The notes below the pieces were generated by a model. The model made no database searches. It was not told where the DNA came from and was given only the letters and a program-made list of their open reading frames with translations. Source: Peptococcaceae bacterium BRH_c4b (GTDB taxonomy: Bacteria > Bacillota > Desulfotomaculia > Desulfotomaculales > Desulfocucumaceae). Taken from it: DNA of 39,760 nt. Both the position numbers and the translations under genes were made by a program. Each line of letters starts with the position of its first letter. The stretch's first letter is position 1. The DNA lies in NCBI GenBank assembly GCA_000961595.1, contig LADO01000053.1, forward strand, positions 1 through 39,760, given 5' to 3'. Positions 1,955 to 21,726 of this stretch are shown here, piece after piece.

Positions 1955-2708
1955 CTACACCAAGTACTCCACCCGTGAACCAGGAAAATTTCTTTCCAGT
2001 TCCCTGCTGAATAGTGAATTCATTTCCTGAAGCTTCTCCTTTGGATAAACATGTTTGCCGTAACCAAACTGGCCGTATTTAAATTTTCTTTCCTCTTCCT
2101 CCAGGGGCAGGCTGGAGTCCGGAAAGACTTCCAGCAGCCTTTTTTTCGCCCTGGCGGTAAAGCGGTGGCTGATGAGCTCAAAGGTAATATTGCTTTTAGC
2201 GGCATCACCAAGGGCTTTTTTTAGGTTATGAACAAGTTCGGTGTAATCCTCCTGCCAGCCAGGATAGAGAATGATGGGAGCTATTAAAAAACCAAGGGGA
2301 TATCCTGCTTCCGCCACCTTACGGGCGGCTTCGATGCGCTCTGCCGCCGGGCGGGGTGTCATGCTCATATTTTCTGATTACATGGGGAGTGTTGATGCTG
2401 AAGCGGAACCGTGTATGCCCGTTATGCCGGGCGTCCAAAAGGCTGTCCACCTCGGTAAATTTGGTGACGAAGCGGAACCTGCCCAGCTTGCTGGCCCCGA
2501 AATATTCAATTGCTTTTTTAAGGGAGCCGGTATACCTTTCCACCGGCAGAGGGTCGGAAGTGGCAGCCCCTTCAAAAACGGTTATTTCCGGGGCACTCTC
2601 ACGTATGTAATGTTCCGCTGCAGACAGTATTTCATCAGTGTTTACATATACCCTCACATAGGGTTTATTGCCCAGGGTAGTGTTCAAGTAGCAGTATTCG
2701 CATTTTCC
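1955..2708 (-). pseudogene. splB copy 2: 5'-truncated and frameshifted spore photoproduct lyase
   Basis: Two overlapping minus-strand frames together cover about the C-terminal 70 percent of SplB. The upstream part (about 2340-2708) begins at KCEYCYLNTTLGNKPYVRVY, so the first cysteine of the CxxxCxxC cluster and everything before it are lost. Similarity to the intact gene stops at about 2708. Near 2346-2352 an extra G (CCGGGCGGGG against CCGGCGGGG in the intact copy) shifts the frame just after HDTPP. The rest continues to a complete but diverged C-terminus (FPGSRVEYLV). Like the intact gene it has FEGAATSDP at the position of the catalytic cysteine. It is a pseudogene. Confidence 0.9.
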
Positions 2709-3287: not shown

Positions 3288-3589
3288 GTATAAAAAAATA
3301 CCTGGAGGCCTTGAAGACCGAAAACATTCGGGTAAAAAAGGTTATCCTTTACGGTTCCCTGGCCGCCGGCACCGCTGATAAGGATAGCGACATTGATTTG
3401 GCCATCGTGTCTCCGGATCTCGGGCGGGACCGGTTTAACGAATCACTTTTACTAAAGAAACTTACCCGGGGAATTGACCTGGATATTTCTCCCAGGCCGT
3501 ATTCGTTAGAGCAGTACCAGAAGGCCAGGCAGGGTGATTTTTTATATGACGAGATCATCCAAAAAGGGAAAACAGTTTACGAAGAGTAG
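3263..3589 (+). CDS. MNT-type nucleotidyltransferase antitoxin of a HEPN/MNT pair
   Basis: This 108-residue minimal nucleotidyltransferase carries YGSLAAGTADKDSDIDLAIV at about residues 30-49, the G-S motif followed by the D-x-D metal-binding pair of the polymerase-beta fold. A third acidic position lies in GIDLDISP. In MNT/HEPN systems this protein neutralises the HEPN ribonuclease, in studied cases by AMPylating it. The ATG lies inside the end of the HEPN gene, so translation would be coupled to it. The protein looks complete even though its partner is broken, leaving an orphan antitoxin. A terminator follows directly. Confidence 0.85.
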   Translation: MAKKQYEVSIKKYLEALKTENIRVKKVILYGSLAAGTADKDSDIDLAIVSPDLGRDRFNESLLLKKLTRGIDLDISPRPYSLEQYQKARQGDFLYDEIIQKGKTVYEE

Positions 3590-3600
3590 CTATTCACGAT

Positions 3601-3638
3601 AAAAGACGGGTTATCCCACTGGGATTAACCCGTCTTTT
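3601..3638 (+). terminator. Intrinsic terminator after the MNT gene, likely bidirectional
   Basis: AAAAGACGGGTTATCCCA pairs with TGGGATTAACCCGTCTTTT, giving a long stem with A and T tracts on both flanks. It can end the HEPN/MNT transcript on the plus strand and the recombinase transcript on the minus strand. Confidence 0.85.
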
Positions 3639-3702
3639 GAGTTACTTAAAGTTATAATACTATATCCTCAGCGAGTAGGGTGGCAGTGCTGGCGCTACCC
3701 CT

Positions 3703-4536
3703 TTATTGATATCTGTCGTACTGCTTTTTCCTGGCATTTGCGCATAGCTGAGCATATATCCTGGTATTTTTTATATTATCGTGGCCCAGGAGATCCTGGA
3801 TGCAGGGTAGCGGCATGCCTTTTTCCGCCAGGTGGGCCGCAAAGGTGTGCCGAAATGTGTGCGGGGTAATCCTTTTGCCCAGCTTTTGGGCATAACCGGT
3901 TATTAGCCCGTGTAATCTGCGTCCTTGAAGGGGGCTTCCCCACTTATTAAGAAATAGGTTGGGAATTTCATCCTGGCGTGATCCCAGGTACTCCTTTAGC
4001 CTTTCAGCGCACTCTGATGTAAAAAGCACAATACGTCCTTTTTTCCCCTTGCCGTTGGGTATAATAATTTGCCGGTCATCCCAGTTGATATCTTCTAGTC
4101 GAATATTTATAAACTCTTCAAGCCGGACCCCAGTAGCATAGAGTGTTTCAATAATGGCCCGGTCCCTTAAATTATCCTTGGCCATTTCTTTTAGCCGTGT
4201 AAGTTCATCCCGTTGCAGATATACAGGCAGCCGGTCGGATAGCCGGGGGGGCTTAATATTTACCGTGGGGTCATTTGCGACCAGGTTTTCTTCCCTGCAG
4301 TATCGGTAAAAAGATTTTAAAGCAGTTAAACAAAGGCATATTGTTGCAGGTGCCTTACCGGACTGGTCAAGATTGGCAAGCCAGACTCTCACGTCAGACG
4401 CTCTAACCACTCCGTATTCCTTTGGGCAAAAGGCAAAGAATTGCCTTAGTACAATCCAGAACCTTTTAACTGTTCCTTCTGCAAACTTTAATTCATGCTC
4501 TAAAAAGAATTGGCTTATTATATCGGTATTTTTCAT
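3703..4536 (-). CDS. Tyrosine recombinase, A type (last gene of the array)
   Basis: This 277-residue XerC/D-like recombinase has an N-terminal SAM-like core-binding domain (about 1-90) and a catalytic domain (about 105-277). The expected residues are present: R138 (ATGVR), K163/K165 in NGKGKKG, H226 and R229 in HTFRHTFA, H252 in LLGH, and nucleophile Y261 in TRIY. Such enzymes cut and rejoin DNA at short inverted sites through a 3'-phosphotyrosine. It starts 5 bases after the B-type gene 4542-5423, so the two are probably co-translated. It is about as similar to the two other A-type proteins as they are to each other. The specific target site is unknown. Confidence 0.9.
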   Translation of the reverse strand: MKNTDIISQFFLEHELKFAEGTVKRFWIVLRQFFAFCPKEYGVVRASDVRVWLANLDQSGKAPATICLCLTALKSFYRYCREENLVANDPTVNIKPPRLSDRLPVYLQRDELTRLKEMAKDNLRDRAIIETLYATGVRLEEFINIRLEDINWDDRQIIIPNGKGKKGRIVLFTSECAERLKEYLGSRQDEIPNLFLNKWGSPLQGRRLHGLITGYAQKLGKRITPHTFRHTFAAHLAEKGMPLPCIQDLLGHDNIKNTRIYAQLCANARKKQYDRYQ

Positions 4537-4541
4537 TTTAA

Positions 4542-5423
4542 TTACCCCATATACCGCCTGTACAGGCTGGTAATATGTTCCGAAGGGAGATTGGCATAAA
4601 TCCTGGTTGTATTAAGTTCTTTATGGCCAAGCTCTTCGGCGATAAAATCCAGCTCAGCGCCCTTGGACAACAGGTTGGTGGCAAAGGTATGCCTGAAGCA
4701 GTGCGGGCTTAGGCTGCGCAAAAGTCCGGCTCTTTGCCCCAGCAATGCTGCGGTATATTGAATTGCCCTTATGGATAGCCTGTTCCCGTAGCGGTTAAGA
4801 AAAAGGGCTGGATTTTCTTTTGGGTGGGTGAGCAAATACTTTTTTAAGAGGATGGCATAGGTTTCCGAAAAGTGCACCTGCCGTATCCTCCTGCCTTTGC
4901 CCACCACCCGGGCCGTCCTGCTAGCAAGGTCTACATCAGCTATATTCAGGCCGTAAACCTCGCAGCATCGGCAGCCTGAGGAAAGTAAAAATTCTATGAT
5001 CGCCCTGTCCCGAAGGGGCAGTTTTTCAGCAGCAAGCCTCACCCGGGCCTCTTCGCTTTTATCCAGGTATTTGGGAACAGGCCTTGGCATTTTGGGCCGC
5101 CAGCGGTTTTTTATTAATACCCGTTTAATATATTCCTCTTCCATGCAGAACTTAAAAAAGCATGACAGGTCACTGATGTAGTTATTAATTGTCCCTTCTT
5201 TTTTATGCCAGTAGTGTTTTTTCAGCCACGCAAGGACGTATTCTGGGGTAAGCTCATTTAGTGGCAGGGAACATTCCTGGAGAAACTTTTCTAATAGCTG
5301 CCGGCGGTAGTTTATTGTGTATTTTGACCTATTGGCCAGCTTCATGCTCATTAGATAGTCATTTAATATTTTCCTATAGCTTTTACTAATTTTTTCGTTT
5401 TCCGAAATCCAATATTTTTTCAT
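4542..5423 (-). CDS. Tyrosine recombinase, B type (fourth gene of the array)
   Basis: This is a tyrosine recombinase with N-terminal core-binding domain and complete catalytic domain: SSGCR arginine, VVGKGRR lysine, HCFRHTFA (H and R), ELGH histidine and TTRIY nucleophile. The frame is open from an ATG at 5438 that overlaps the previous stop as ATGA. I chose the ATG at 5423 because GAGG lies nine bases before it and the protein then begins MKKYWISENEK, like its B-type sister at 7199-8080 (MKEKYWIIEHEK). It differs from the A type by a conserved IKNRWRP segment between the domains. A decayed piece of a very similar gene lies at 1066-1150. Confidence 0.9.
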   Translation of the reverse strand: MKKYWISENEKISKSYRKILNDYLMSMKLANRSKYTINYRRQLLEKFLQECSLPLNELTPEYVLAWLKKHYWHKKEGTINNYISDLSCFFKFCMEEEYIKRVLIKNRWRPKMPRPVPKYLDKSEEARVRLAAEKLPLRDRAIIEFLLSSGCRCCEVYGLNIADVDLASRTARVVGKGRRIRQVHFSETYAILLKKYLLTHPKENPALFLNRYGNRLSIRAIQYTAALLGQRAGLLRSLSPHCFRHTFATNLLSKGAELDFIAEELGHKELNTTRIYANLPSEHITSLYRRYMG

Positions 5424-5434
5424 TTCCATCTTCC

Positions 5435-6277
5435 TCATTGATAATTGTCGTATTGCTTTTTCCTGGCTGTGGCGCTTAGTCTCGTGTAAATCCTGGTGGT
5501 ATTGATATTGACGTGTCCCAATAGCTCTTGAATATGGGTCTGGGGCATGTCCTTTTCAGCCAGGTGGGCGGCAAAGGTGTGCCTTAGGGTGTGGGGGGTA
5601 ACAGCAACACCTAAGCCGAGTTTTTTGGAGTAGCCACGAAACATGAGTTCAACCCACACCCGGCTTAAGTGACCACCCTTCTTATTGGCAAAAAGATAGG
5701 GGCTTTGAACAATTCTATTATCTAGATACTCTCTTAATCTTTCAGCACATTCAGTTGTAAAAAGAACAAAGCGCTCCTTATTTCCCTTACCTTTTGAAAT
5801 CCAGATCTGCCGGTTGTCCCACTTGATGTCAGATAGCTTAGTGTTTATTAGCTCACTTACCCGTACCCCGGTGGCATAGAGTGTTTCAATGATAGCGCGG
5901 TCCCTTAAATTATCCTTGGCCGCCTCCATAAGGAGGGCAAGGGTTGCCTTATCCAAGAAGAAGGGTAGGGAGTCATCTATCTGGCACATGCTTACGTTTA
6001 AGGTGGGATCCTTTTGAGTAAGGTTTTCATTTATGCAATATTTATAAAATGTGCGCAGTGAGGCGAGCTTTAAATTTCTGGTTCTAGCCTTTTGCCCGTT
6101 TTTCTCCAGCTCTGCAAGCCAAGCCCGGATGTCCGCTGCCTTTACTTCGTCATACTCCTTCTGGCAAAAGCCAAAAAACTGTCTCAACGATATTCCGTAT
6201 CCCCTGGCTGTCTCCTTGGCAAACCTTGCCTCGCTGTCTTTAAAAAAATAGTTAATTACATCATTGGTTTTTTTCAT
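5435..6277 (-). CDS. Tyrosine recombinase, A type (third gene of the array)
   Basis: This 280-residue protein begins MKKTNDVINYFFKDSEARF. It has a core-binding domain, then a catalytic domain with R139, K164, H229, R232, H255 and Y264 all in place (ATGVR, KGKGNK, HTLRHTFA, LLGH, TTRIY). It is very like the A-type protein at 6353-7195, suggesting a duplication. Its stop codon overlaps an ATG of the next B-type frame. A 75-base gap, holding an ATCAGG...CCTGTCC inverted motif, separates it from the gene upstream. This is the only real spacing inside the array. Confidence 0.9.
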   Translation of the reverse strand: MKKTNDVINYFFKDSEARFAKETARGYGISLRQFFGFCQKEYDEVKAADIRAWLAELEKNGQKARTRNLKLASLRTFYKYCINENLTQKDPTLNVSMCQIDDSLPFFLDKATLALLMEAAKDNLRDRAIIETLYATGVRVSELINTKLSDIKWDNRQIWISKGKGNKERFVLFTTECAERLREYLDNRIVQSPYLFANKKGGHLSRVWVELMFRGYSKKLGLGVAVTPHTLRHTFAAHLAEKDMPQTHIQELLGHVNINTTRIYTRLSATARKKQYDNYQ

Positions 6278-6314
6278 AATATAACTTCCTGAACTTATCT
6301 ATTTGCTAATGCAC

Positions 6315-6338
6315 ATCAGGCGGGCATGAGCCCTGTCC
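6315..6338. repeat. ATCAGG-N11-CCTGTCC inverted motif inside the array
   Basis: The halves CAGG and CCTG are inverted and lie between two A-type genes. The same motif with a 7-base spacer occurs at 8159-8178, before the first gene. It could be a recombinase site or a leftover of a REP-like repeat. Confidence 0.35.
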
Positions 6339-6352
6339 AAATTTTTTCACCA

Positions 6353-7195
6353 TTATTGAAAACTATCGTATTGAGTCTTTCTAGCCTTGGCGTTAAGCCT
6401 AGTGTAAATCCTGGTACTATTGATGTTGACATGCCCTAGAAGTTCTTGGATATAGCTTTGCGGCATATCTTTTTCGGCCAGGTGCGATGCAAAGGTGTGC
6501 CTCATTATATGGGGGGTAAACTTGCGCCCTAGATCCAGCTCTGCGGCATAGCGGCAAAAGATTTTCTGAAGCCACGCCCGGCTCAAATGTTTTCCCCGCC
6601 TATTGGCAAAAAGGTAAGGGCTTTCTATATTTCTATTTGCCAGGTATTCTTTTAACCTTTCGGCACACTCTGTGGTGAAAAGAACAAACCTATCTTTATT
6701 GCCTTTACCCTTCCTGATCCAGATCTGCCTGGTGTCCCATTTGATGTCCGAAAGCTGGATATTTAACAACTCTCTTGCCCGGACCCCGGTGGCATATAGG
6801 GTTTCAAGCAAAACACGTTCCCTGGGGTGGTCTTTAGCGGCCTCCATCAGCTGAGCCATTTCGTTTTTTTCTAAATAAACAGGCAGGGGCTCTTCTTTCT
6901 TGGGCAAGTCGATGTTTAAAGTAGGTTTCTTTTGGATGAAATTCTCCTCAAGGCAGTACTGGTAAAATGAACGCAGGGCTACCAGCCTTGTATTAAGTGT
7001 TCTGGGCTTTTGCCCGGCCTCGTCAAGCGCTGATAGCCAGGCTCGAATGTCTGCTGTCTTAACCTCGTCAAACTCTTTTTGGCAAAAACTGAAGAATTGC
7101 CTGAGCGACTGCTTATATTTCAGGATCGTTTCTTTGGCAAACCTCGCCGCGTTGTCCTTAAAAAAATACTCTATGACTTCATGCGTTTTTTTCAT
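6353..7195 (-). CDS. Tyrosine recombinase, A type (second gene of the array)
   Basis: This 280-residue protein begins MKKTHEVIEYFFKDNAARF. The catalytic residues are complete: R139 in ATGVRARE, K164 in RKGKGNK, H229 and R232 in HIMRHTFA, H255 in LLGH, Y264 in STRIY. Its start lies three bases after the stop of the B-type gene 7199-8080, so those two form a tight pair. The protein is close to the neighbouring A-type copy in length and sequence. It is smaller than phage integrases, having no arm-binding domain, and fits simple XerC/D-like or transposon recombinases. Confidence 0.9.
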   Translation of the reverse strand: MKKTHEVIEYFFKDNAARFAKETILKYKQSLRQFFSFCQKEFDEVKTADIRAWLSALDEAGQKPRTLNTRLVALRSFYQYCLEENFIQKKPTLNIDLPKKEEPLPVYLEKNEMAQLMEAAKDHPRERVLLETLYATGVRARELLNIQLSDIKWDTRQIWIRKGKGNKDRFVLFTTECAERLKEYLANRNIESPYLFANRRGKHLSRAWLQKIFCRYAAELDLGRKFTPHIMRHTFASHLAEKDMPQSYIQELLGHVNINSTRIYTRLNAKARKTQYDSFQ

Positions 7196-7198
7196 ATC

Positions 7199-8080
7199 CT
7201 ACTCCTTAATTTTCCTATATGAGGCAATGAGTTCCTCTGAAGGAATTCTGGCGTAAATCCTGGTCGTGTTAAGATCACGGTGCCCCAACTCGTTACCGAT
7301 GAATTCTAGATCAGCGCCTCTGGACATCATATTGGTGGCAAAGGTGTGCCGGCAGCAATGTGGGCTAAAGTTATTGGCTAAACCAGCCTTTTTGCCAAGT
7401 CTAGTGGTGATTGCGTAGATGCCTTTCGACATAAGCCTGTCCCCAAATTTATTTAAAAATAGAGGCTTCTTATCGGGATGGCTATACAAGTATTCTTTTA
7501 GGAGAAGGGCAGTTTCCTCGTCAAAATGAACCTCGCGAACTTTATTGCCCTTTCCCACCACCCGTGCAATTCTGCTGTCCAGATCTACATCTTCAACATT
7601 TAACCCTGATACTTCCGAGCGTCGGCAGCCGGAGGTTAACAAGAACTGTACTAAAGCCCGGTCCCGTACAGAAAGTTTTTCGGCCTGTAGTTTTACACGG
7701 GCCAACTCACTACTGTTTAAATACTTCGGAAGGGACTTTGGTAATCGCGGTCGCCAGCGGTTCTTGATTAACGCCCGGTCAATATATTCCTCAGCATGGC
7801 AGAACTTAAAAAAGCTCGATAGAACCGCGAGGGCCATTGAATTTGTCCGTTCTTTTCTATCCCCGTAAAAGGTGCGAAGCCAGTTGAGGACATCGTCTGG
7901 AACTAGTTGATGTAGTGGCTTTGGACATTCAGTAAAAAACTTTTGCAATATCCGCCGATACTTGTCTATAGTACCTGGCGATTTTTTTGATAGCTTAATA
8001 CATCTTAAAAATTCATTGGCAATGTTTTTAGTCTGTGGATCAAGTTTTTCATGCTCGATAATCCAATACTTTTCTTTCAT
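7199..8080 (-). CDS. Tyrosine recombinase, B type (first gene of the array)
   Basis: This 293-residue protein begins MKEKYWIIEHEKLD. Residues R153 (TSGCR), K177 (VVGKGNK), H241 and R244 (HCCRHTFA), H267 (ELGH) and Y276 (TTRIY) complete the recombinase active site. It is the first gene of the unit; AAGGA about eight bases before the ATG is a usable ribosome site. Upstream is a 0.9-kb non-coding stretch that must hold the promoter. An inverted ATCAGG-N7-CCTGTCC motif lies 79 bases before the start. Its partner is the A-type gene immediately downstream. Confidence 0.9.
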   Translation of the reverse strand: MKEKYWIIEHEKLDPQTKNIANEFLRCIKLSKKSPGTIDKYRRILQKFFTECPKPLHQLVPDDVLNWLRTFYGDRKERTNSMALAVLSSFFKFCHAEEYIDRALIKNRWRPRLPKSLPKYLNSSELARVKLQAEKLSVRDRALVQFLLTSGCRRSEVSGLNVEDVDLDSRIARVVGKGNKVREVHFDEETALLLKEYLYSHPDKKPLFLNKFGDRLMSKGIYAITTRLGKKAGLANNFSPHCCRHTFATNMMSRGADLEFIGNELGHRDLNTTRIYARIPSEELIASYRKIKE

Positions 8081-10142: not shown

Positions 10143-10998
10143 TGGCTTTCTCCGATTCAGCCATTCGATCAAGGGGACTGGTCACGTCAAGAGATTCAAT
10201 CTTGACCAAATGCAAGTAAAAGCAGGTCGTGTTGATGTTTGAGTGTCCGAGCAGTTGCTTGATGTGGTAAATACTTGTGCCGGATTCCAACAGGTGAGTG
10301 GCAAAGCAATGTCTCAGAGTATGGACTGTAACGTTTTTAGTAATCTTAGCTTTGCTTACATATTTATTAAAAAGATTTTCTACAGCTCTAGGAGTTATGT
10401 GTGTACCGGTATTATTTCTGCTGCAAAAAAGCCACTCTTTGGGGCGGTAAGTCTTCCAGTAAGCTCTAAGCATCTCGAGATTGGCTTGAGAAAGCAGGGC
10501 ATATCGATCTTTACCGCCTTTAGCATTGCGAACAAACAGTTGCATTTTATCGCTATGGATATCTGCAACTTTAAGTGAAGCTACTTCACTAAGGCGAAGT
10601 CCAGCACCATAGAGGGTCATAAGAATGCATTTATCTCTCAAGTTGTCGCAGGCATTAAAAATAATTTGGATTTCCTCTTGAGTAAGGATATCAGGGAACT
10701 TGCGTAGTATACGGTGACGAGGGATTTGCTTGAGGTTTAAATTGATGTTCAAAGTTACGCCATACAAAAAGCGAAGGCCGCTGTTGTAGGTATTTACCGA
10801 TTCGGAAGCAAGCTTCTTTTTTGTAGTAAGATAATGGAGGAACTCTCTAACATCCTCTACGCCTAGCTCAGTTGCAGGTTTATTAAAGTGGTCCTGAAAA
10901 ATTTTAACCTTGGTATAGTACTCAGCCTTGGTATGCTTGCTTAACCCCCTGAGTTCTACGTCGAATTTCAGCCTCTCTAAAACCTGTTCCTTTGTCAT
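10135..10998 (-). CDS. Tyrosine recombinase paired with the IS91 transposase
   Basis: This 287-residue recombinase has a full active site: R135 in GAGLRLSE, K160/K163 in NAKGGKDR, H226 and R229 in HTLRHCFA, H252 in LLGH, and Y261 in TTCFY. AAAGGAGA eight bases before the ATG is a strong ribosome site. It is not close to the A or B recombinases of the 3703-8080 array; wording such as KHTKAEYYTKVK and TLYGAGLRLSEV is typical of recombinases linked to IS91-like transposases. In these elements its contribution to transposition is not settled, and it may resolve circular intermediates. Confidence 0.9.
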   Translation of the reverse strand: MTKEQVLERLKFDVELRGLSKHTKAEYYTKVKIFQDHFNKPATELGVEDVREFLHYLTTKKKLASESVNTYNSGLRFLYGVTLNINLNLKQIPRHRILRKFPDILTQEEIQIIFNACDNLRDKCILMTLYGAGLRLSEVASLKVADIHSDKMQLFVRNAKGGKDRYALLSQANLEMLRAYWKTYRPKEWLFCSRNNTGTHITPRAVENLFNKYVSKAKITKNVTVHTLRHCFATHLLESGTSIYHIKQLLGHSNINTTCFYLHLVKIESLDVTSPLDRMAESEKANG

Positions 10999-10999
10999 G

Positions 11000-11470
11000 G
11001 TTTAAACATCTCCTTTAAAATCGAATTAGCTTTATTTTAAAGGAAATCAATTAAAATGAACTGACTTTTTGTAGCATAAGTTGTGTTTGGCAATATGGAA
11101 GGGTAGCGCTTAGCTTCCGTTTTTCTTCCAGTTTTATTTCCAGTTTCCCATTAGCGACGAACCTCCACAAGAATGGTTCGGTGTCCGGGGGTGAAGGCTA
11201 AAATCCTTATGACATCGCCCCTAAAAGGCTACCATGCTTACCCTCATCGTCAATGGTTCCACTCCATCAAACTGGAAATAAAACTTAAACAAGCTGGAAA
11301 TTATTAAGTTCTGCAGTGCTCGGAATTGTAACTTCCGGAAACACACCAGTTCATCGAAACGGCTTAAAAATACAGAGACCACCGCGCCAGCGGTTTAGTG
11401 CAATGTCTATTAGGCGAAGTTGAGAAGTATAAAAATTTTTGAAACAAAAATTAAAATTGGGAGAATTAAA
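11000..11470. other. Non-coding stretch right of the IS91-like genes
   Basis: This holds the region where the origin end of the IS91-like element should lie, and the inverted-repeat unit at 11130-11285. From 11300 to 11400 there is degenerate-looking sequence with no recognised gene. The last bases (GGGAGAATTAAA) are the ribosome site of the ATPase gene. Confidence 0.6.
11130..11285. repeat. 156-base unit bounded by perfect 17-base inverted repeats
   Basis: AGTTTTATTTCCAGTTT at 11130-11146 is the exact reverse complement of 11269-11285. Further partial copies of TTCCAG lie at 11125 and, inverted, at 11293. The inside is GC-richer, with short complementary words (GAATGGTTCG, AATGGTTCC; GGGGGTGAAGG, CGCCCC). 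It looks like a small non-autonomous element or the fused ends of an IS. Confidence 0.55.
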
Positions 11471-12631
11471 ATGATAAAAATTAACCCATACACACCTGGT
11501 GCAGGTATAATTCCAGGCTACTTAGCTGGTAGGGATAATTTAATAGATTCTGCTAAAGAGTTATTAACTTATATTTCCTTAGGGCAAACTCAACAATCAT
11601 ATATTTACTATGGTCTAAGAGGAGTTGGCAAAACAGTTCTACTAAATGTTATAGAAAAAAATGCAGAAAGTAACGATTTTATTTATGAACACTTGGAAAT
11701 TTCTGAAAATCATGATTTTAAAATTGATATTGCCATACATTTGCAGAAAATTATTTTGCGTTTAAGTAGGATAGAGAAAATTAAGGATAAGTTTAAAAAA
11801 GTTCTTGGCATTCTAAAGGCTTTTACATTAAAAATTGATGATTTTGACTTCACTTTCGATGTAGATGCCATTACAGGTCAAGCTGATACAGGCAACTTCC
11901 AAAATGATTTAACAGAATTATTTGTGCAAATCGGCAATCTGGCACATAGTGCAGACCAAAAGATTGCAATTTTTATTGATGAAATACAGTATTTGAAATA
12001 TGACGATTTTGAAGCATTGATTGCGGCCACGCATCGCATTCATCAAAAAGGCTATCCATTCGTTATTTTTGGTGCCGGATTACCTAAAATTGCTAAGATG
12101 GCTGGGGATGCTAAATCATATGCTGAAAGATTATTTGAGTTTGTAAAAGTGGATAGTTTAAGGGAGCCTTACAATAGATTGGCCTTAGTGGAACCTGCGA
12201 AGAGATTTGGAGTTACATATACTGATGATGCATTAGATATGATTATTGAAATTACTGATGGGTACCCATACTTTTTACAAGAATTTGGCAGGCAAGTATG
12301 GGACTATAGAGATAATGATTTAATAAATGCAGAATCAGTAAATAAGGCACATGATTCCTTTTTGAGTAAGCTTGATGATAGTTTCTTTAAAGTTAGATTT
12401 GATAGGGCGACAGGCAATGAAAAGAAGTTTATGTTTGCCATGTCTGAATTAGGAGAAGGCCCTTACGAAATAAACTCCATTGCAAGTATGTTGGCAAAGG
12501 AGCAGAATCAAATAGCAATTGATAGGGCGAACTTAATTAATAAAGGTTTCGTTTATTCTACCAGATATGGTTACTTAGATTTCACTGTGCCTCAATTCAG
12601 TAAATTTCTTAGAAGAATAAGGTCCAAATAA
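11471..12631 (+). CDS. AAA-type ATPase of the ORC/Cdc6-STAND-like group
   Basis: This 386-residue protein begins MIKINPYTPGAGIIPGYLAG RD, an opening seen in stand-alone bacterial ATP-binding proteins of the AAA_16 type. Walker A is GLRGVGKT at residues 48-55 and Walker B is IAIFIDE at 165-171. A sensor-like FGAGLP segment and a C-terminal winged-helix-like region (about 300-386) follow. The ATG at 11471 follows GGGAG; an upstream in-frame codon at 11420 has no such site. The gene is AT-rich like the recombinase remnants but unlike its right-hand neighbour. It has no partner in the same operon. Its function is unknown; related proteins are often found on mobile DNA. Confidence 0.75.
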   Translation: MIKINPYTPGAGIIPGYLAGRDNLIDSAKELLTYISLGQTQQSYIYYGLRGVGKTVLLNVIEKNAESNDFIYEHLEISENHDFKIDIAIHLQKIILRLSRIEKIKDKFKKVLGILKAFTLKIDDFDFTFDVDAITGQADTGNFQNDLTELFVQIGNLAHSADQKIAIFIDEIQYLKYDDFEALIAATHRIHQKGYPFVIFGAGLPKIAKMAGDAKSYAERLFEFVKVDSLREPYNRLALVEPAKRFGVTYTDDALDMIIEITDGYPYFLQEFGRQVWDYRDNDLINAESVNKAHDSFLSKLDDSFFKVRFDRATGNEKKFMFAMSELGEGPYEINSIASMLAKEQNQIAIDRANLINKGFVYSTRYGYLDFTVPQFSKFLRRIRSK

Positions 12632-12678
12632 TAAAGACATATTCCTTAAAGGGACCTAACATACGGTATCATGAAAGG

Positions 12679-12858
12679 ATGAGTGCATCTTCTGAATACA
12701 AGCCGGAAGAATTTGTTGAGGCCATTACATTAGGAAATCAAATTGCGCCTCAATCCGCCGGTTGCCAGTATCTTAGGAAAAGTCAGATACCCATGAGCCT
12801 GTCGGATGCCAAAGCAGAAGGGTATACTCCTTGCAGTAAGTGTGGGCCGCCCCGGTAA
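12679..12858 (+). CDS. Small zinc-ribbon protein resembling the Ada-type metal-binding motif
   Basis: This 59-codon frame ends in SAGCQYLRKSQIPMSLSDAK, AEGYTPCSKCGPP. The pattern (a cysteine in GCxYLRKS, then GYxPCxxC) is the familiar metal-binding tail found at the ends of nucleases and other proteins in Firmicutes, normally preceded by YH. Here the first part reads QIAPQ instead of the usual KYHR, so one ligand may be lost. The ribosome site is poor. It may be a free-standing mini-protein, but more likely is the surviving 3' end of a larger gene. The rest of 12632-12975 holds no gene that I can see. Confidence 0.5.
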   Translation: MSASSEYKPEEFVEAITLGNQIAPQSAGCQYLRKSQIPMSLSDAKAEGYTPCSKCGPPR

Positions 12859-12975
12859 AATAATTTAACTTGGCAGTTTATTAAATAAATTGAGGGCAAT
12901 CCCGGAATTCCTTTTGTTCCCGGCCTGCCAATAGTAATAATTGGTATGATTTAATGCGTCGAAGGTGGGAGTATA

Positions 12976-14004
12976 GTGAAATTAGAATTGTTCCAAACCA
13001 CAGTTAGGGAATACAAGCTTTTTACACAACAACTGCCCATAAATTATTCTAAGGCAATGTCGGGCGATTTCTCCGACTCTACTTACGTTGCCGCACAAAC
13101 TCGGCTCATGCTGCTTCGTAAGTACACGCGAAACGGTAGAGGCAGTTTGTATTTAGCCGATATTGTTACTGAGGCTATCCGCCGCTTCCCTGGGCATTCA
13201 GTTTATTTATCAGAGTTTCAGGCACGTTTTCAGCAATCCTGTGATCAGTCGCTCAATCACGCTCTCGCTGATGGTACGGAACGAACACTGAATGAATCCA
13301 TAGACGATACGATGTACGGCCTTCACTTGCACGCGGATGAAGAAAGGATTCATCGTATTGCCCAAGATAATGAGCTGCTTAGACTGTATTGTGTCGTAAC
13401 ATTTGTAAAAGAAATCGAGGCTCTAGTCATTGAACTTTCTGATTTTTTTGAGGTGAACGGCGTGCCCTGCATTGAAAAAGCACACCACTTACGCGCCCCG
13501 GTGATTCACCTTGAATCGCAAGATTCAGACGCGCAAAATGTCACAGGCTCACCTTTTTGGTGTAACCTAATCGGTTCTGATATGACCGAAGAAAGTACCA
13601 CAGCCGTTTTCACCACATTGCTCGGGCAATACACGTTTGAGGAGTGGCAATTGTGGGCAACTGCTTGCGCTTTCACGCAATTGCTGGCGCAGGAACAGTT
13701 TTCTTACGATGAAATGAAGCGCCTTGTGTTTGAGCCGACTATCTATAACTGGGGTGATTTTTCCGTAGCCGTCGCTTATTACAAAGCCATTCCATCGCCG
13801 GGGATGAGTACTGTCATTCGGTATAATAAACAACGCGACGCGGCGTATATCAATGTATTTCCTCGCGTAGAGGAGGGCTTTATCGTTGATTCTACTCAGC
13901 TCGTATCGGATATCTACGTGGTCACACTTGTCAAAGATCAAAGGTTGGGCGAGTGGAGAGTTTTTGCCTTCGGAGGTCGTGTTGAACCGTTTATCCGTGA
14001 CTGA
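12976..14004 (+). CDS. Hypothetical protein, 342 residues
   Basis: It begins with GTG at 12976, six bases after GGTGGGA, and encodes a soluble protein without signal peptide or membrane segments. The N-terminal half is mainly helical by eye (for example ARFQQSCDQSLNHALADG). The middle has ESIDDTMYGLHLHADEERIH, and the C-terminal half looks beta-rich (AYINVFPRVEEGFIV, EWRVFAFGGRVEPFIRD). I do not recognise the family. It is GC-richer than the genes on both sides, which suggests a separate origin. It sits alone between an ATPase and the OLD-like gene, within DNA that otherwise looks like a defence island. Confidence 0.6.
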   Translation: MKLELFQTTVREYKLFTQQLPINYSKAMSGDFSDSTYVAAQTRLMLLRKYTRNGRGSLYLADIVTEAIRRFPGHSVYLSEFQARFQQSCDQSLNHALADGTERTLNESIDDTMYGLHLHADEERIHRIAQDNELLRLYCVVTFVKEIEALVIELSDFFEVNGVPCIEKAHHLRAPVIHLESQDSDAQNVTGSPFWCNLIGSDMTEESTTAVFTTLLGQYTFEEWQLWATACAFTQLLAQEQFSYDEMKRLVFEPTIYNWGDFSVAVAYYKAIPSPGMSTVIRYNKQRDAAYINVFPRVEEGFIVDSTQLVSDIYVVTLVKDQRLGEWRVFAFGGRVEPFIRD

Positions 14005-14260: not shown

Positions 14261-15724
14261 ATGGGTGAAATTCAGGAAATAATGCGGCAATTCGACCACG
14301 GAAATGGTGAGTGGCAACAGTTCATAAAGTCTATCAAAATTAATAACATTCATGGATGGACTAATCAGGAGATGCTTTTCAAGTTCCCAGTTGTAGCTGT
14401 TGTGGGTGAAAACGGAATCGGAAAGAGTACATTTTTGAAAGCAGCAGTTTGTGCTTATGAGAATAAAGGTGCAAAAAACTTTTACCCGTCCAATATGTTC
14501 ATGAGCACACAGTGGGATGCGGCAGCGATGGCAGGGGCAACAATTGAATATAAGATTCGTCAAGGAGTGCATGAAAAACCTCTCAGATGGCGTAAAACAA
14601 ATGACTGGGGATTTACACCTAAAAAAGGGAAGCCTCAAAGAAAAGTCTTTTTCTTAGATATTTCCCGTACCTTACCCTTAGATGCTACAGCTGGCTATGC
14701 AAAAATTGCAAAAATAGCAAGTGAAGAGATGGGCAACGAAATTGAACTTAACGATGAAAGTATGCAAAATCTCTCATATGTACTAGGGCAAGAATATACC
14801 CGTGCGCGATTTGTCGGAACCAACATTAACGCATCGCGTGAAGTAGGGCTTCTTACTAAAGAATATGGTGAAATCTCTCAATTTCATCAAGGGGCAGGAG
14901 AAGATACTATGCTTGATTCGTTTAAACTGCTTCAAACCATTCCCAATCAGTCGCTATTGGTGATTGATGAAGTGGAAAATTCTCTACATCCGCAAGCACA
15001 AAGGCGTTTTGTACAATATTTGTTAAAGTTGGCGAGAATTAAGAAGTTACAAATTATCCTATCTACACATAGTCCATTTGTATTGGAAGAGTTACCAGAA
15101 ATAGCAAGAATCATGTTAGTAAGGTTGTCTGATAGAAAAGATATTATGTACGAAGTCTCCAGCCAATTTGCACTTTCCACAATCGATGACAGGGCGCATC
15201 CTGAATTGTTTGCCTTTTTGGAAGACGAAGAGGCGGTTTCTTTGTTTTGGGAAATCCTTAAGCAGGATAGTGCCAGATATGATGAGTTTTGCACGAAAAT
15301 TTCGGCACGCGCCGTAGGTAGTTGTTCTGTTGTTGGAACACTTAACGAATTAGGTAAAACCCACAAATTACCATATAGCAGTCTCGCTATCGTTGATGGA
15401 GATAAAAGGGATGTTTTCCCTAACTGTCTGAGTCTTCCAGGTAATTTAGCTCCAGAAAAACAAGTTCTTACCGACTTGAAAAACATTGAATGGAATCGTC
15501 TCGACGAGCGCTTCGGTATAGGCGCAGGAACGTTGTTCAAATATTTGGATGATGCTGTTTTGCTACCAGATCATCATGAATGGACTAAATATATTGGCGA
15601 CCGCGTTAAAAAGAGCAAGGATACCGTATGGTCAATATTAATTGAAGAATGGCATAAACAATGTCTGAACGAAGAAGTTGCTACTACATTTATTGAAAAT
15701 GTTTATACTGCTTTACACCTATAG
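14261..15724 (+). CDS. OLD-like ATPase with C-terminal TOPRIM nuclease domain
   Basis: This 487-residue protein has an ABC/SMC-type ATPase fold: Walker A GENGIGKST at 49-57, a signature-like HQGAGEDTML at 209-218, Walker B LLVIDE at 232-237 and the switch histidine in LSTHSP at 268-271. From about 315 it continues as a TOPRIM-like domain, with glutamates in FLEDEEAV and a D-x-D pair in IVDGDKRD (D379, D381). This architecture is that of OLD-family nucleases such as GajA of the Gabija phage-defence system, although the protein is shorter and no GajB-type helicase is present. The ATG follows GAGGAGGG. It is followed by the AIPR and DUF3800 genes in the same direction, the likely partners. Confidence 0.8.
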   Translation: MGEIQEIMRQFDHGNGEWQQFIKSIKINNIHGWTNQEMLFKFPVVAVVGENGIGKSTFLKAAVCAYENKGAKNFYPSNMFMSTQWDAAAMAGATIEYKIRQGVHEKPLRWRKTNDWGFTPKKGKPQRKVFFLDISRTLPLDATAGYAKIAKIASEEMGNEIELNDESMQNLSYVLGQEYTRARFVGTNINASREVGLLTKEYGEISQFHQGAGEDTMLDSFKLLQTIPNQSLLVIDEVENSLHPQAQRRFVQYLLKLARIKKLQIILSTHSPFVLEELPEIARIMLVRLSDRKDIMYEVSSQFALSTIDDRAHPELFAFLEDEEAVSLFWEILKQDSARYDEFCTKISARAVGSCSVVGTLNELGKTHKLPYSSLAIVDGDKRDVFPNCLSLPGNLAPEKQVLTDLKNIEWNRLDERFGIGAGTLFKYLDDAVLLPDHHEWTKYIGDRVKKSKDTVWSILIEEWHKQCLNEEVATTFIENVYTALHL

Positions 15725-15800
15725 TGAGAATAGTGTTATTCCCATTATCCATATACAGGAAAAGTTGTTTATCGTGCGAAAGCAAAAATCAGTGGATAAT

Positions 15801-15852
15801 TTAAGGGTATTCATGCAATAAATTTTAACCATATGGCTTTTAGGGTATTCAT
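15801..15852 (+). repeat. Direct repeat before the AIPR gene
   Basis: TTAAGGGTATTCAT at 15801-15814 and TTTAGGGTATTCAT at 15839-15852 match at 13 of 14 positions, 38 bases apart, and end 41 bases before the AIPR start. They could be operator sites for a repressor; no regulator is known. Confidence 0.4.
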
Positions 15853-15892
15853 AAGGTATGCATATGTACGATAGGATAGGAGATAAACTTAA

Positions 15893-17596
15893 ATGTCAAG
15901 AAATAGCCAAATCCTCTTAGAAGAAATAATTAAGCAAGAAAAAGAGAATTTTGAAGTCTCAATGTCTATTGATGATTTCTTTGAGTTTTACTCATCTTCA
16001 CAAATTTTAAAAAGCTACGAACTAAGCTACGATGAAATTGAAGGTGGTCTAATTGGGAATAGTCACGATGGTGGAGCAGACGCTGCTTATTTATTTGTTA
16101 ACGGTGATTTAGTGAAAGAAGACGAAAGTATTAAAGAAAAATACAAGAAAAATGTTGATGTGGAATTTATTATAATTCAGGCGAAGTATTCAAATTCTTT
16201 TTCAGAAGAGCCGTTATTAAAATTGGCTAGGTTAAGTAAAAATTTGTTTAATTTTGATTTTAATAGAGATGATTTTGACGGTCGTTATAATGAAAAAGTG
16301 CTACGTGCTTTCGAGTTGTTTAAAGATACTTACATAAAATTAATAACAAAAAAACCAAAGTTAAAAATAATATTTTACTATGTCTCTAAAGGAATGGATG
16401 TTCACCCAAATGTCAATCGACAAGCGGACGATTTGAAGGCAGATGTGCAAACAATACTCCCTGATGCTTCGGTTGAAATTAAATTTATAAATGCTGAGCA
16501 GCTTATAAAATTTAGCCAAGCAAGAGTTAATGACGTTTATCGCATGAAAATTTCCGAAAACCCAATGTCATCAACCGGCCAGCAGGTGTTTATTGCGCTT
16601 GTCAATCTTTCCGACTACTTCGACTTTATAACTGATGAAGATAATAAACTAATTAAGTATATTTTTGAATCAAATGTTAGAGATTATCAAGGCAAAACAA
16701 ATGTTAACAATGAGATTCAAGAGACTCTTGAAAATGGTAAAAAAGAAGAGTTTTGGTGGTTAAATAATGGCGTAACAATATTATCTTCTAATGCATCTGC
16801 ACCTGGGGGAAAAGAATTAGTAATTCACGACCCAGAAATAGTGAACGGCTTACAGACTTCAAGCGAAATTTTTAGATATTATTCCAATAATCCTGATAAA
16901 TTAAAAGCTGAAAAAAGGACCATTCTTGTTAGAGTGATTGTTCCAGAATCCGAAGAAACAAGGGATAAAATAATTAGAGCAACTAATAGTCAGACGCCTA
17001 TACCTAAAGCTTCATTAAGAGCAACTGATCCTATTCACAGACAAATCGAAGATTATATGCGCCCACGTGGGCTTTATTATGATAGAAGAAAAAATTTCTA
17101 CAAAAATGAAGGAAAAAAGCCTAAAGAAATTATAAGCGTATCCTTTATGGCCCAGTGTTTGATGTCTGTATTATTACAAAAACCTGATTTCGCTAGAGCA
17201 AGGCCTTCAACACTGTTAGACGATGATGAAGCTTACAAAAAATTATATCATAAAAACAATGATCTTAACACATATTATAATCTTTCATATATTGGTAGGA
17301 AAATTGAGTTATATTCGAAGCAAGATTTAATATATACTTCATCTGAGCATAATGATATTTTATTCTACGTATTATATGCAGTATGCGTAATAATTACTTC
17401 AAATATCTATCCTTCTAGCAAAACTATGGCAGGAATGGATATTAGTAAAATTAATGATTTCTTGATAAGAAGTTCAGTAGATTTAGTATATGATTTATAT
17501 AAAACACTTGGAGGAAATGATAAAGTGGCAAAAGGACCCAAGCTTTCTGAACTACTTAAAGAAAAGCTACGTGAAAGGATAAACCCAGTCCTTTAG
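15893..17596 (+). CDS. AIPR-family protein (abortive infection phage resistance) with nuclease-like N-terminus
   Basis: This 567-residue protein has the AIPR core: NVRDYQGKTNVNNEIQETL at 261-279, FWWLNNGVTIL at 287-297 and DPEIVNGLQTSSEIF at 313-327. AIPR was first described on a lactococcal phage-resistance plasmid; its mechanism is not established. The N-terminal part contains HDGGADAAYLF (D59, D63) and, 33 residues later, IIIQAK (Q96, K98). These resemble the D...(E/Q)-x-K active site of Mrr-like restriction nucleases, so a DNA- or RNA-cutting role is plausible. AGGAG ten bases before the ATG supports the start. It lies between the OLD-like and DUF3800 genes. The whole frame is intact and strongly AT-rich. 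Confidence 0.85.
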   Translation: MSRNSQILLEEIIKQEKENFEVSMSIDDFFEFYSSSQILKSYELSYDEIEGGLIGNSHDGGADAAYLFVNGDLVKEDESIKEKYKKNVDVEFIIIQAKYSNSFSEEPLLKLARLSKNLFNFDFNRDDFDGRYNEKVLRAFELFKDTYIKLITKKPKLKIIFYYVSKGMDVHPNVNRQADDLKADVQTILPDASVEIKFINAEQLIKFSQARVNDVYRMKISENPMSSTGQQVFIALVNLSDYFDFITDEDNKLIKYIFESNVRDYQGKTNVNNEIQETLENGKKEEFWWLNNGVTILSSNASAPGGKELVIHDPEIVNGLQTSSEIFRYYSNNPDKLKAEKRTILVRVIVPESEETRDKIIRATNSQTPIPKASLRATDPIHRQIEDYMRPRGLYYDRRKNFYKNEGKKPKEIISVSFMAQCLMSVLLQKPDFARARPSTLLDDDEAYKKLYHKNNDLNTYYNLSYIGRKIELYSKQDLIYTSSEHNDILFYVLYAVCVIITSNIYPSSKTMAGMDISKINDFLIRSSVDLVYDLYKTLGGNDKVAKGPKLSELLKEKLRERINPVL

Positions 17597-17652
17597 GATG
17601 GAATTAAAAATAATCACCTAACAATCATAATACGGTATGAGGCGATATTATA

Positions 17653-18802
17653 ATGCAATGGGAATTTTATATGGATGAAAGTGGTAGCTGGAGACATATC
17701 CCCAAAATTTATTGATGAAAAGTTAAAAATTGAACAGCCAGTCTTTGTAGTAGCAGGCATTGGGTATCCTTCAGATCGCAAGGACGAACTAGATGATCAT
17801 ATCCAGCATATTAGGGGAAAATACAAAGTACCAGAAGGTGAACTTAAAGCAAAATCGTTATATCGAAGCAACCCAGATGTTTTTGCTGATATAGTTAAAT
17901 ATTTTAGACGCAACAGGCTACCTATTTTTATAGAGATTAATGATAAACGATACTTTATTGCTTGTAAAATTGTAGAATTGATTTTTAGAGATGTTCGCGA
18001 AGAAGGCCTGCATCCTCAGTACATATATGATCTTTCTAGAGGCGCATCCGATTTTATCTGCCATGAAATCGATGATAATCTTCTTTTTGAATTTGCTCAA
18101 GTCTCCATTAAAAGAAGTCCTGACATGCTCAGAAAGTGGTTTACAAGAATTCTACGCTTTCTAGCACGACACAAAAGTAAAGAGGCTGAACTGCTATGGG
18201 CTGTCTTAAAAGGTATAACGGAGAGTTATGAGGCAGAGGCACAAAGCCATAAGAATGCACATGAACGATACTTGCCTGACCCTGACAGGAATCAGAGAGG
18301 TGAGATTATTGCGCTTTTACCTCACATACCTGCGGTAGTGAGTATATTGCAACGTATTTTAAAGTTCTCAAATGATAAAGGATTGACTGACTTAAGGATT
18401 GTTCATGATGAGCAAAGTAAATTTGAAAGTATTTTACTCGACAACATAAACAGCATGCGAGATCCAGACATAATAAGGAATATGGCTTTGTTTGCTGTCA
18501 ACGAAATAGCAAAGAGAAGATCTTTAACCATTCCCGATAATACTATATTAGAATTTGATGAATCTAGCGATCAATTGGGTATACAAATCGCTGACCTCTT
18601 ATCAGGAACACTCATGAGGATATGGTCTGAGTTCACCACAGGTAATATTAGAAAAGGCAGTAGATACATTCCTCTTCTAAGCGACGTATTAATTCCTTAT
18701 GAATCGATGCATCCCGCTCTTGGTATCAATTTCGTTGTACCACAATACGAATTTGATTCGTTCCAAAACATATTACGCAACATTAGATATAAGAATAAGT
18801 AA
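17653..18802 (+). pseudogene. DUF3800 protein split by a one-base frameshift near its start
   Basis: Translation from the ATG at 17653 gives MQWEFYMDESGSWRH, the hallmark DESG opening of DUF3800 proteins, which are predicted RNase H-fold enzymes. It then stops at 17713. The rest of the protein lies in another frame, readable from 17675 as ISPKFIDEKLKIEQPVFVV and onward for about 370 residues to an aspartate-rich C-terminal SSDQLGIQIADLLSG. That segment is the usual second acidic motif. The frame change occurs at about 17694-17706, in a CCCC-AAAA tract. The gene is either inactivated, switched by slippage, or affected by a sequencing error. The otherwise undamaged 3' part argues for a recent event or an error. 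Confidence 0.75.
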
Positions 18803-18942
18803 AGAGCACATAGTCTTAAGGATAAATATAAACTTCGCATTGTTCATATAACTGGACAAAAGGTTTGAGACTGTGTTAAAACGCGTAAACGCAAGGGTGA
18901 GCAATTAGGTGCCTGCAGACGTCTTCAGCGGACGGGCTTACG

Positions 18943-18954
18943 CGCAAGCTTGCG
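18943..18954. repeat. Perfect 12-base palindrome CGCAAGCTTGCG
   Basis: It lies in the 220-base gap between the DUF3800 and nuclease-like genes. A third copy of the half-word ACGCAAGGGTGA occurs at about 18888, facing TGCGTCACCC at 18951-18960, so a longer hairpin is possible. Role unknown. Confidence 0.35.
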
Positions 18955-19023
18955 TCACCCCTGTCGCTTGGTGATCCACAGCACCGTTTAATTCTAGCAT
19001 ATAATGGGAGATGAAGCCAACAA

Positions 19024-20073
19024 ATGAAGCGAATTCCCCGCGATCCGGAGAAATTCGAGGTCATTGATCTCTTTGACGCGATAGGTCAGAAGCGAGACCT
19101 CAAGCTACATGATGAATCTAGTGAAAAAATCTTTCTTGAAAGCATACAGACATCATTAGGTCGCTACAAGACACCGATAATCCTGCACGGACGCCGTATT
19201 GAGTCCATGTTTGGATATGTAGCAGCGTCCCTTGGGAGAAGTGCCGTTATCAAAAAGGAGGATTGTGGAGAAGTATTCCTCGAATTGACCGGTGCAAAAA
19301 TTCCTGACTACCGCGTTGTAACGCAGGCAGGTGAGCAGTTTCTTGTGGAGGTAAAGAATTGCCACAAAGCCAATCCATCTGCTAAGTTTTCACTAAAGGC
19401 GGCCTATCTTGAGGCGCTCAAGTCATACGCTTCTTTGGTTAATCTCGAACTGAAGATAGCAATCTATTGGTCCCGTTGGAATAAGTGGGTTTTGATTTCA
19501 CCAGATGACTTGCGATGCGAGCGCTCTACCTGTGTGACTACCTTTGTCGATTCTTGTATGCAAAATCAAATGTCCATCTTAGGCGATGTCACAATCGGGA
19601 CAACTCCCCCTCTTGTATTTAGACTGTTAACAGACCCCGAAAAGCCGCGGCGTGTTGGTGAAAATAGCAAAGCCACCTTTACGATTGGCCATGTCGAGCT
19701 GTATTGTGCGGGGCAGCTCATTATTGAGAAGGAAGAACAAAATATCGCTTTCTACCTCATGTTGTATGGCGACTGGCCAACGAAGCAACCGAAAGCGCAC
19801 ATAGAAGATGGAGAACTACTTGCTATTGAGTATTTGGCTGAACCCATAGAGGAAACGCCTGGGCAGGGATTCGAGATAATAGGGTCTATGACCGGCATGA
19901 TTTCTAGACACTACAATGAGCTGACAGCCCCATCAGGACAAGTAGAAAGGTTTGCACCAAAGGGTGAGCCGGGAATGCTGGGAATTGCGATTCCGGCTAA
20001 CTATAAGGGGAGCCAGTTACCGCTGTGGATGTTCATTCAGCAACCAGCGAAAGATGACGATGGAGAAACCTAA
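19024..20073 (+). CDS. PD-(D/E)XK nuclease-like protein of the island
   Basis: In the N-terminal half of this 349-residue protein, E60 in GRRIESMFGYVAASLG, P94-D95 in KIPDYRVVT and E109-V-K111 in FLVEVKNCH match the spacing of a PD-(D/E)XK active site, as in restriction and defence nucleases. The remainder (about 150-349) is beta-rich and not recognised. It contains a segment (PPLVFRLLTDPEKPRRV) followed by TIGHVELYCAG, which might be a target-sensing part. There is only a weak ribosome site (GGGAG 14 bases upstream). It is separated by 220 bases from the DUF3800 gene, so it may form its own transcription unit. Its base composition is also less AT-rich than the AIPR gene. Confidence 0.65.
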   Translation: MKRIPRDPEKFEVIDLFDAIGQKRDLKLHDESSEKIFLESIQTSLGRYKTPIILHGRRIESMFGYVAASLGRSAVIKKEDCGEVFLELTGAKIPDYRVVTQAGEQFLVEVKNCHKANPSAKFSLKAAYLEALKSYASLVNLELKIAIYWSRWNKWVLISPDDLRCERSTCVTTFVDSCMQNQMSILGDVTIGTTPPLVFRLLTDPEKPRRVGENSKATFTIGHVELYCAGQLIIEKEEQNIAFYLMLYGDWPTKQPKAHIEDGELLAIEYLAEPIEETPGQGFEIIGSMTGMISRHYNELTAPSGQVERFAPKGEPGMLGIAIPANYKGSQLPLWMFIQQPAKDDDGET

Positions 20074-20477: not shown

Positions 20478-21500
20478 CTAGACCAAGTATTCTATATTAG
20501 CTTCCGGGAAATAGGTGTCAATTTCCCGGTGAAATAGTGATTTCAGCTCTTCCATGGTTTCCTTTGGATAAACATATTTACCGTACCCGAACTGGCCGTA
20601 TTTAAATTTCCTTTCTTCCTCCTCCAGGGGCAGGCTGGAGTTCGGGAATACTTCCAGTAGCCTTTTTTTAGCCCTGGCGGTGAAGCGGTGGCTGATGAGC
20701 TCGAAGGTGATATTGCTTTCAGCCGCGTCACCCAGGGTTTTTTTAAGGTTATGGACAAGTTCGGTGTAATCCTCCTGCCAGCCAGGGTAGAGGATGATGG
20801 GAGCTATTAAAAACCCCAGGGGATATCCCGCTTCCGCCACTTTCCGGGCGGCTTCGATGCGTTCTGCCGCCGGCGGGGTGTCGTGCTCGTATTTTCTAAT
20901 CACATGGGGAGTGTTGATGCTGAAACGGAACCGTGTATGACCGTTATGCCGGGCGTCCAGCAGGCTCTCCACCTCGGTGAATTTGGTAACGAAACGAAAC
21001 CTGCCCAGATCGCTGGCCCCGAAATATTCAATGGTTTTTTTAAGGGAGCCGGTATACCTTTCCACCGGCAGGGGATCGGAGGTGGCAGCACCTTCAAAAA
21101 CGGTGATTTCCGGAGCCCTTTCCTGGATGTATTTTCCCGCCGCAGACAGTATTTCATCAGTGTTAACGTATACTCTCACATAGGGTTTATTCCCCAGGGT
21201 GGTATTCAAGTAGCAGTATTCGCATTTTCCGGTGCAACTGGTGGATAGCGGTAACTGATAATGGGCGGAGGGCTTGCAGCTTTCAAATTTGAGGGTCCGG
21301 CGAACTCCCACCACCAGGGTTCGCTTGGCTTCATAATAGGACTCCTGGGGAGTTTTCCCCGGTATCCCGGCAACCCGGTTGTGGCTGCCGATTATCCGGG
21401 AAGGTATTTTTAGTTTGTTGAATTCTTCAAATAATTGTTTCCCCAGCGAAAAATTCAAGGCATCACTTTCAAAAAAAACCCTTCCGGGCACAAAAGGCAT
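20478..21500 (-). CDS. splB: Spore photoproduct lyase, full length, lacking the expected catalytic cysteine
   Basis: This radical-SAM enzyme family repairs the thymine dimer (spore photoproduct) during germination. The cluster motif CTGKCEYCY (C89, C93, C96, followed by conserved tyrosine) is present, with KTPQESYYEAKRTLVVGVR upstream and the typical HRFTARAKKRLLEVFP and KYGQFGYGKY blocks downstream. I start at the ATG at 21500 (MPFVPGRVFFES), which aligns with Bacillus SplB; the frame is open to an ATG at 21551. The length of 340 residues is normal. At the position of the hydrogen-donor cysteine (Bacillus C141, FEASCTSD) this protein has FEGAATSDP, with alanine at residue 139. It may therefore be a variant lyase or have another role. 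A hairpin covers its ribosome-binding region. Confidence 0.9.
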   Translation of the reverse strand: MPFVPGRVFFESDALNFSLGKQLFEEFNKLKIPSRIIGSHNRVAGIPGKTPQESYYEAKRTLVVGVRRTLKFESCKPSAHYQLPLSTSCTGKCEYCYLNTTLGNKPYVRVYVNTDEILSAAGKYIQERAPEITVFEGAATSDPLPVERYTGSLKKTIEYFGASDLGRFRFVTKFTEVESLLDARHNGHTRFRFSINTPHVIRKYEHDTPPAAERIEAARKVAEAGYPLGFLIAPIILYPGWQEDYTELVHNLKKTLGDAAESNITFELISHRFTARAKKRLLEVFPNSSLPLEEEERKFKYGQFGYGKYVYPKETMEELKSLFHREIDTYFPEANIEYLV

Positions 21501-21506
21501 AATGAA

Positions 21507-21535
21507 CACCCCGGCATATATTATTTGCCGGGGTG
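21507..21535 (-). promoter_or_regulatory. Hairpin over the splB translation start region
   Basis: CACCCCGGCA at 21507-21516 and TGCCGGGGTG at 21526-21535 form a perfect ten-base-pair stem with a nine-base loop. On the minus strand it ends six bases before the ATG at 21500, and its GGGGTG arm is the only purine-rich ribosome site. It could hold back translation, or mark the longer start at 21551 as wrong. Confidence 0.6.
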
Positions 21536-21726
21536 AATTTATTATGCTCATCTATTTAAGAGGCAGCATTATCTGTCTTGATATTGCGTTTATATTTAAA
21601 ATATCATCACTCGACTTGGACAAAAATATATAAACCACACGGGTTTTGATTTTACCATACTTAACAGTAACATCTTGATTTGACGTGAATATCATATATT
21701 GGAATAAGCGAAAGGAGGAATACCAT

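Follow-up and report, generated by a model that had tools for sequence, protein, structure and literature searches.

Do four adjacent genes with nuclease- or ATPase-type motifs form one defence system, or do they belong to separate systems that came to lie next to each other? The genes were found in the window, the whole stretch of DNA analysed here (39,760 nucleotides; contig LADO01000053.1 of Peptococcaceae bacterium BRH_c4b). The sequence-only reading of this DNA had a candidate multi-gene defence system as its headline and independent systems placed side by side as its alternative. The four co-directional genes that it had located were confirmed as open reading frames on the plus strand.

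14261..15724, plus strand: gene 1, OLD-type ATPase with a TOPRIM-like C-terminal part, HEC-04 family (PHROG 3940), 487 aa
15893..17596, plus strand: gene 2, AIPR/AbiU1-family protein, 567 aa
17653..18802, plus strand: gene 3, DUF3800 gene, apparently disrupted, from three-frame reading; the 375-aa ORF is 17675-18802
19024..20073, plus strand: gene 4, unnamed PD-(D/E)XK protein, 349 aa, from motif columns and model

The four genes were separated by gaps of 168, 78 and 221 bases, and gene 1 lay 256 bases from the gene upstream. The earlier statement that gaps of 170-260 bases separate some genes left out the 78-base gap between AIPR and DUF3800. A run of four co-directional genes for nuclease-like or ATPase-like proteins, one gap being short, would suit a single new multi-gene system: the OLD ATPase would be the sensor, and the AIPR, DUF3800 and PD-(D/E)XK proteins would be the nuclease effectors. 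The same orientation and the 78-base gap would fit co-transcription, which counts against an island of separate systems. However, third-position GC differed strongly among the genes (0.34 for OLD, 0.25 for AIPR, 0.31 for DUF3800 and 0.48 for PD-(D/E)XK), which argues against a single system; it was 0.57-0.65 in splB (described below) and the adjoining host genes, compared with 0.25-0.48 in the four genes. Promoter-like sites were no richer than in shuffles, and the count of terminator-like sites (14, against a shuffle mean of 8.2) was not decisive.

The translation of gene 1 contained a Walker A motif (GENGIGKST), a Walker B motif (LLVIDEVE), an acidic ED.EA motif and DGD. The protein matched AAA_15/AAA_21 in Pfam, HEC-04 in PADLOC (3e-60), PHROG 3940 over residues 19-481 (1e-62) and, by sequence, the OLD nuclease 6p74. 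By its motifs and the HEC-04 match, gene 1 has the HEC-04/OLD-type layout of an ATPase followed by TOPRIM-like acidic motifs, and its product would act as an OLD-like TOPRIM nuclease under ATP control. Two other identities were rejected: for Gabija or Septu (GajA, PtuA), the matches covered the ATPase domain only and there was no GajB or PtuB partner; for Retron I-B, the reverse transcriptase that should adjoin the ATPase was not found, none of the six cargo proteins scanned with Pfam, PADLOC and NCBIfam giving a reverse-transcriptase match. Our literature search found no report of antiviral activity of HEC-04; some HECs, such as HEC-06, have been reported to be antiviral (PMC12988326). Elsewhere, the neighbours of HEC-04 homologues varied. 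A truncated OLD homologue was also seen (locus L113, genome G034, contig C9), the first 70 residues of which were 66% identical to the HEC-04 protein of gene 1.

The AIPR protein matched the PADLOC AbiU model over its full length (model positions 1-536 of 537; 1e-200) and Pfam AIPR (8e-43; 147.7 bits against a cut-off of 25), which places it in the AbiU1/AIPR family. It consists of an N-terminal PD-(D/E)XK nuclease domain (D59-G-G-x-D63 ... Q96-x-K98), a ParB-like middle domain and a helical C-terminus. Residues D59, G61, D63, Q96, K98 and E105 were invariant among 28 sequences, and D59-G-G-x-D63 together with Q96-x-K98 fits a PD-(D/E)XK site. In a structure model built from the 28 sequences (pLDDT 85), the fold of residues 1-212 matched FokI (Z 9.9), MspJI (8.2) and the N-terminal domain of Avs4 (7.7) by VIA-align, and residues 228-394 gave a middling match to ParB-N (Z 6.5). 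Neither a search of PDB sequences with the AIPR profile nor Foldseek on the model (E below 0.001) gave a match. The protein may best be pictured as a nuclease with a FokI/Mrr-like N-terminal PD-(D/E)XK domain, which the ParB-like, possibly nucleotide-binding middle domain would govern, either holding it in check or activating it, and which infection would switch on.

Gene 3 matched Pfam DUF3800 (1.1e-8). Three of the four family calls of the sequence-only reading held (OLD-type, AIPR and PD-(D/E)XK), as did its view that these families occur in defence contexts; the DUF3800 gene appears to be broken. The DESG motif had been wrongly assigned to the DUF3800 ORF and sits in another reading frame. 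Three-frame reading gave FYMDESGSW from 17653 in one frame, with a stop after ~20 codons, and the continuation GDISPKF... in another, that of the 375-aa ORF, which starts downstream without DESG. DUF3800 homologues begin ..Y(L/I)DESGN(S/T)GD..., and in the five close homologues read, all from plasmids, DESG was in frame every time. Thus, the pairing of an in-frame N-terminal DESG-type motif with the C-terminal domain that marks DUF3800 proteins was lacking in the window gene. The frame change could reflect either a truly broken gene or an assembly error at that point, and as read, the gene is probably non-functional in the strain. An apparently disrupted component also speaks against one four-gene system.

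No family was assigned to the 349-aa protein in Pfam, PADLOC, NCBIfam or PHROGs. Its motif comprises E60, P94-D95 and E109-V-K111, and these columns were conserved in homologues except for one K-to-R change. The low-confidence model (pLDDT 55) showed an alpha-beta-beta-beta-alpha-beta core that was Hjc-like (Foldseek E 9e-5), and core topology and (P)D ... ExK together place the protein, at the low confidence of that model, in the PD-(D/E)XK fold. Homologues were 35-38% identical on plasmids, including those of Rhizobium, Yersinia, Providencia and E. coli, and 33% in phages, including an Escherichia phage; their neighbours varied, and one homologue lay at a prophage end, adjoining an integrase. 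Single-sequence scans of viral contigs with DUF3800, OLD and PD-(D/E)XK queries gave no relatives, and an alignment query gave two PD-(D/E)XK loci. The protein may be a PD-(D/E)XK nuclease that works alone and has a core like that of resolvases. As an unnamed PD-(D/E)XK protein that occurs on plasmids and in phages across several phyla, it is a testable lead.

We investigated whether the four families recur together. AIPR was chosen as the anchor because it has many relatives; few close relatives of DUF3800 (five) and of HEC-04 were readable. The AIPR survey took one genome per species and covered 80 loci across many phyla, each with flanks of up to 8 kb per side where the contig allowed; the other genome-search loci had ~1.5 kb of flank only. 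When the other window proteins were compared by tblastn with the 80 AIPR loci, no homologue of the DUF3800, PD-(D/E)XK or 342-aa protein (the last described below) was found; the only matches were two short ones to the generic part of the ATPase. Outside the window, no locus contained two of the families, either among the 80 AIPR loci or among the loci of all four families in plasmids, phages and genomes, and in profile searches, every locus with two families by full-profile match was a copy of the window itself. Single AIPR genes were common in other bacteria. The closest AIPR relative (74%, Paenibacillus foliorum) lacked the other three families nearby and had a phage-type integrase ~3 kb downstream, and AIPR homologues 44% identical to the window protein were on Lactococcus cremoris plasmids. 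The neighbours that recurred in 86 AIPR loci, under names that we assigned from the annotation in locus L024 and from sequences, were cytosine methyltransferase (12), DUF4928-like (7), HsdS-like (6) and Vsr-like (5) genes. AIPR is reported to be often linked to R-M systems, and these R-M neighbours are in line with that published AbiU1/AIPR association (PMC3506569).

These results bear on two readings. One new system of all four genes is extremely improbable: no second locus held any two of the families, and AIPR occurred without the other three in unrelated bacteria. A two-gene unit of AIPR and DUF3800, with the other genes as bystanders, would fit the 78-base gap and the AT-richness of both genes, yet we regard it as very unlikely, since no DUF3800 gene lay beside AIPR in the 80 loci or on plasmids, and the DUF3800 homologues read elsewhere had varying neighbours, none of them AIPR. 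Searches of 60 related genomes for AIPR and for DUF3800 gave no copies besides those of the window, at the thresholds used, and a literature search found no system of the OLD-AIPR-DUF3800-PD-(D/E)XK combination. The homologues were never neighbours elsewhere in any sample examined, and as the DUF3800 gene is also apparently disrupted, the multi-gene headline is unsupported and the side-by-side alternative is favoured. Given the absence of co-occurrence, the changing neighbours and the differing third-position GC, separate acquisitions are the parsimonious account, and a false "four-gene system" is kept out of follow-up.

What brought the genes together is suggested by the surrounding DNA, where we take the gene at 20478-21551 to be splB (spore photoproduct lyase) from its sequence and Cys motif.

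20478..21551, minus strand: intact splB, putative attachment gene of the island, with the crossover core GGAAAATGCGAATACTGCTACTTGAA at 21205-21230
1958..2708, minus strand: displaced splB 3' part (codons about 106-357), putative far island end, with the 26-bp core at 2683-2708
3703..8080, minus strand: five tyrosine recombinase genes in tandem, ordered B-A-A-B-A (B ~295 aa, A ~280 aa)
11462..12631, plus strand: AAA_16-type ATPase, candidate cargo, 389 aa (Pfam AAA_16 1.1e-10)
12976..14004, plus strand: 342-aa protein without a family, candidate cargo upstream of the four genes (no match above cut-off in Pfam, PADLOC, NCBIfam or PHROGs)

The displaced splB copy was 88.7% identical over 699 nt to 20533-21230 and ended sharply at the 26-bp core, where the similarity between the copies starts and which encodes the Cys-motif segment GKCEYCYLN. 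A second partial splB copy was present at 693-951, and the far end of the island occurred once more on contig C46 (genome G000), where the same core lies at 11918-11943. The partial copies appear to mark integrations inside splB at this one core. The recombinase cassette adjoins the displaced copy, and all five recombinases contain the motif H-x-x-R-H-T-F-A. In a genome of the same family (G303), splB was cut at the same point, two tandem displaced copies were present and the five recombinases occurred in the same order; the cargo was different and included Gabija (GajA and GajB). In a genome of another family of the same order (G338), a four-recombinase version lay beside a splB C-terminal fragment (codons 321-357; locus L173). 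From the splB duplication at the core, the recombinase cassette and these two relatives, the four genes appear to be cargo of an integrative element, located near its splB end. At 3191-3883, the island end holds a nucleotidyltransferase-like gene together with a partial recombinase gene; this stretch was ~90% identical to one in a same-genus genome (G299, contig C18; locus L149, 18146-18836), which lies ~5 kb downstream of splB there.

The 342-aa protein had one homologue (26%, on an Enterococcus faecium plasmid), with none of the four families adjoining, and none in 199 genomes of the phylum besides its own. Between it and the AAA_16-type ATPase, at 12640-12860, a short stop-bounded stretch ending in SGCQYLRKSQIPMSLSDAKAEGYTPCSKCGPP looked like a gene remnant, Cys-rich and similar to the tail of a nuclease. 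At 8982-10998, an IS91-family transposase gene overlapped a Xer/integron-type tyrosine recombinase gene. The DUF3800 frame change, the truncated splB copies, this remnant and the nearby IS91-type transposase could mean that the genes are, for the most part, decaying and no longer functional, but the OLD, AIPR and PD-(D/E)XK frames were full length with conserved motifs, and we consider general decay unlikely.

The region is very probably a defence island whose candidate systems were acquired separately and are carried as cargo by an element that crossed over inside splB, and not one operon-like system; the cargo genes would then act separately. As a defence island it is ordinary; the element that carries it is noteworthy and is the most interesting part of the region. 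The chances seem evenly balanced for a combined proposal about the element and the 349-aa protein. In it, the element would belong to an undescribed family whose members integrate into splB at its Cys-motif codons, share a conserved cassette of tandem tyrosine recombinases, leave splB full length with its 3' end supplied by the element, and exchange their defence cargo; the 349-aa PD-(D/E)XK protein would be a defence nuclease that acts alone and has no name yet. A splB-targeting element that keeps its recombinase cassette while the defence cargo changes is a testable lead, and a literature search found no description of a splB island for Bacillota.

The cargo can be compared with several known systems. 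Gene 1 shares its ATPase and TOPRIM-like layout with HEC-04, a PADLOC Hma-embedded candidate, and with OLD-family nucleases, but is only 29% identical to its best near-full-length homologue in the phylum sample. The window AIPR protein matches the AbiU model end to end; lactococcal AbiU, however, consists of abiU1 and abiU2 (PMC3985639), whereas neither AbiU2 nor an R-M gene was recognised beside the window AIPR, a general Pfam scan of the neighbours giving no AbiU2-like match. The DUF3800 gene shares the Pfam domain and the conserved C-terminal Q-I-A-D-L region with DUF3800 proteins and differs in its out-of-frame N-terminal DESG. The 349-aa protein has the PD ... E-x-K core of Hjc-type Holliday-junction resolvases and, more weakly, resembles the core of the PD-(D/E)XK SPARDA nucleases, but differs from both in its large uncharacterised C-terminal half and in having no curated family. 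Among elements that integrate into protein-coding genes, Streptomyces phage Samy targets a radical-SAM gene, annotated as a putative SplB in some strains, an annotation that the paper doubts (PMC12924846). Integration inside a radical-SAM gene is common to Samy and the island, whereas the island differs in its cassette of five tyrosine recombinases and in the full-length splB that exists once the element has inserted.
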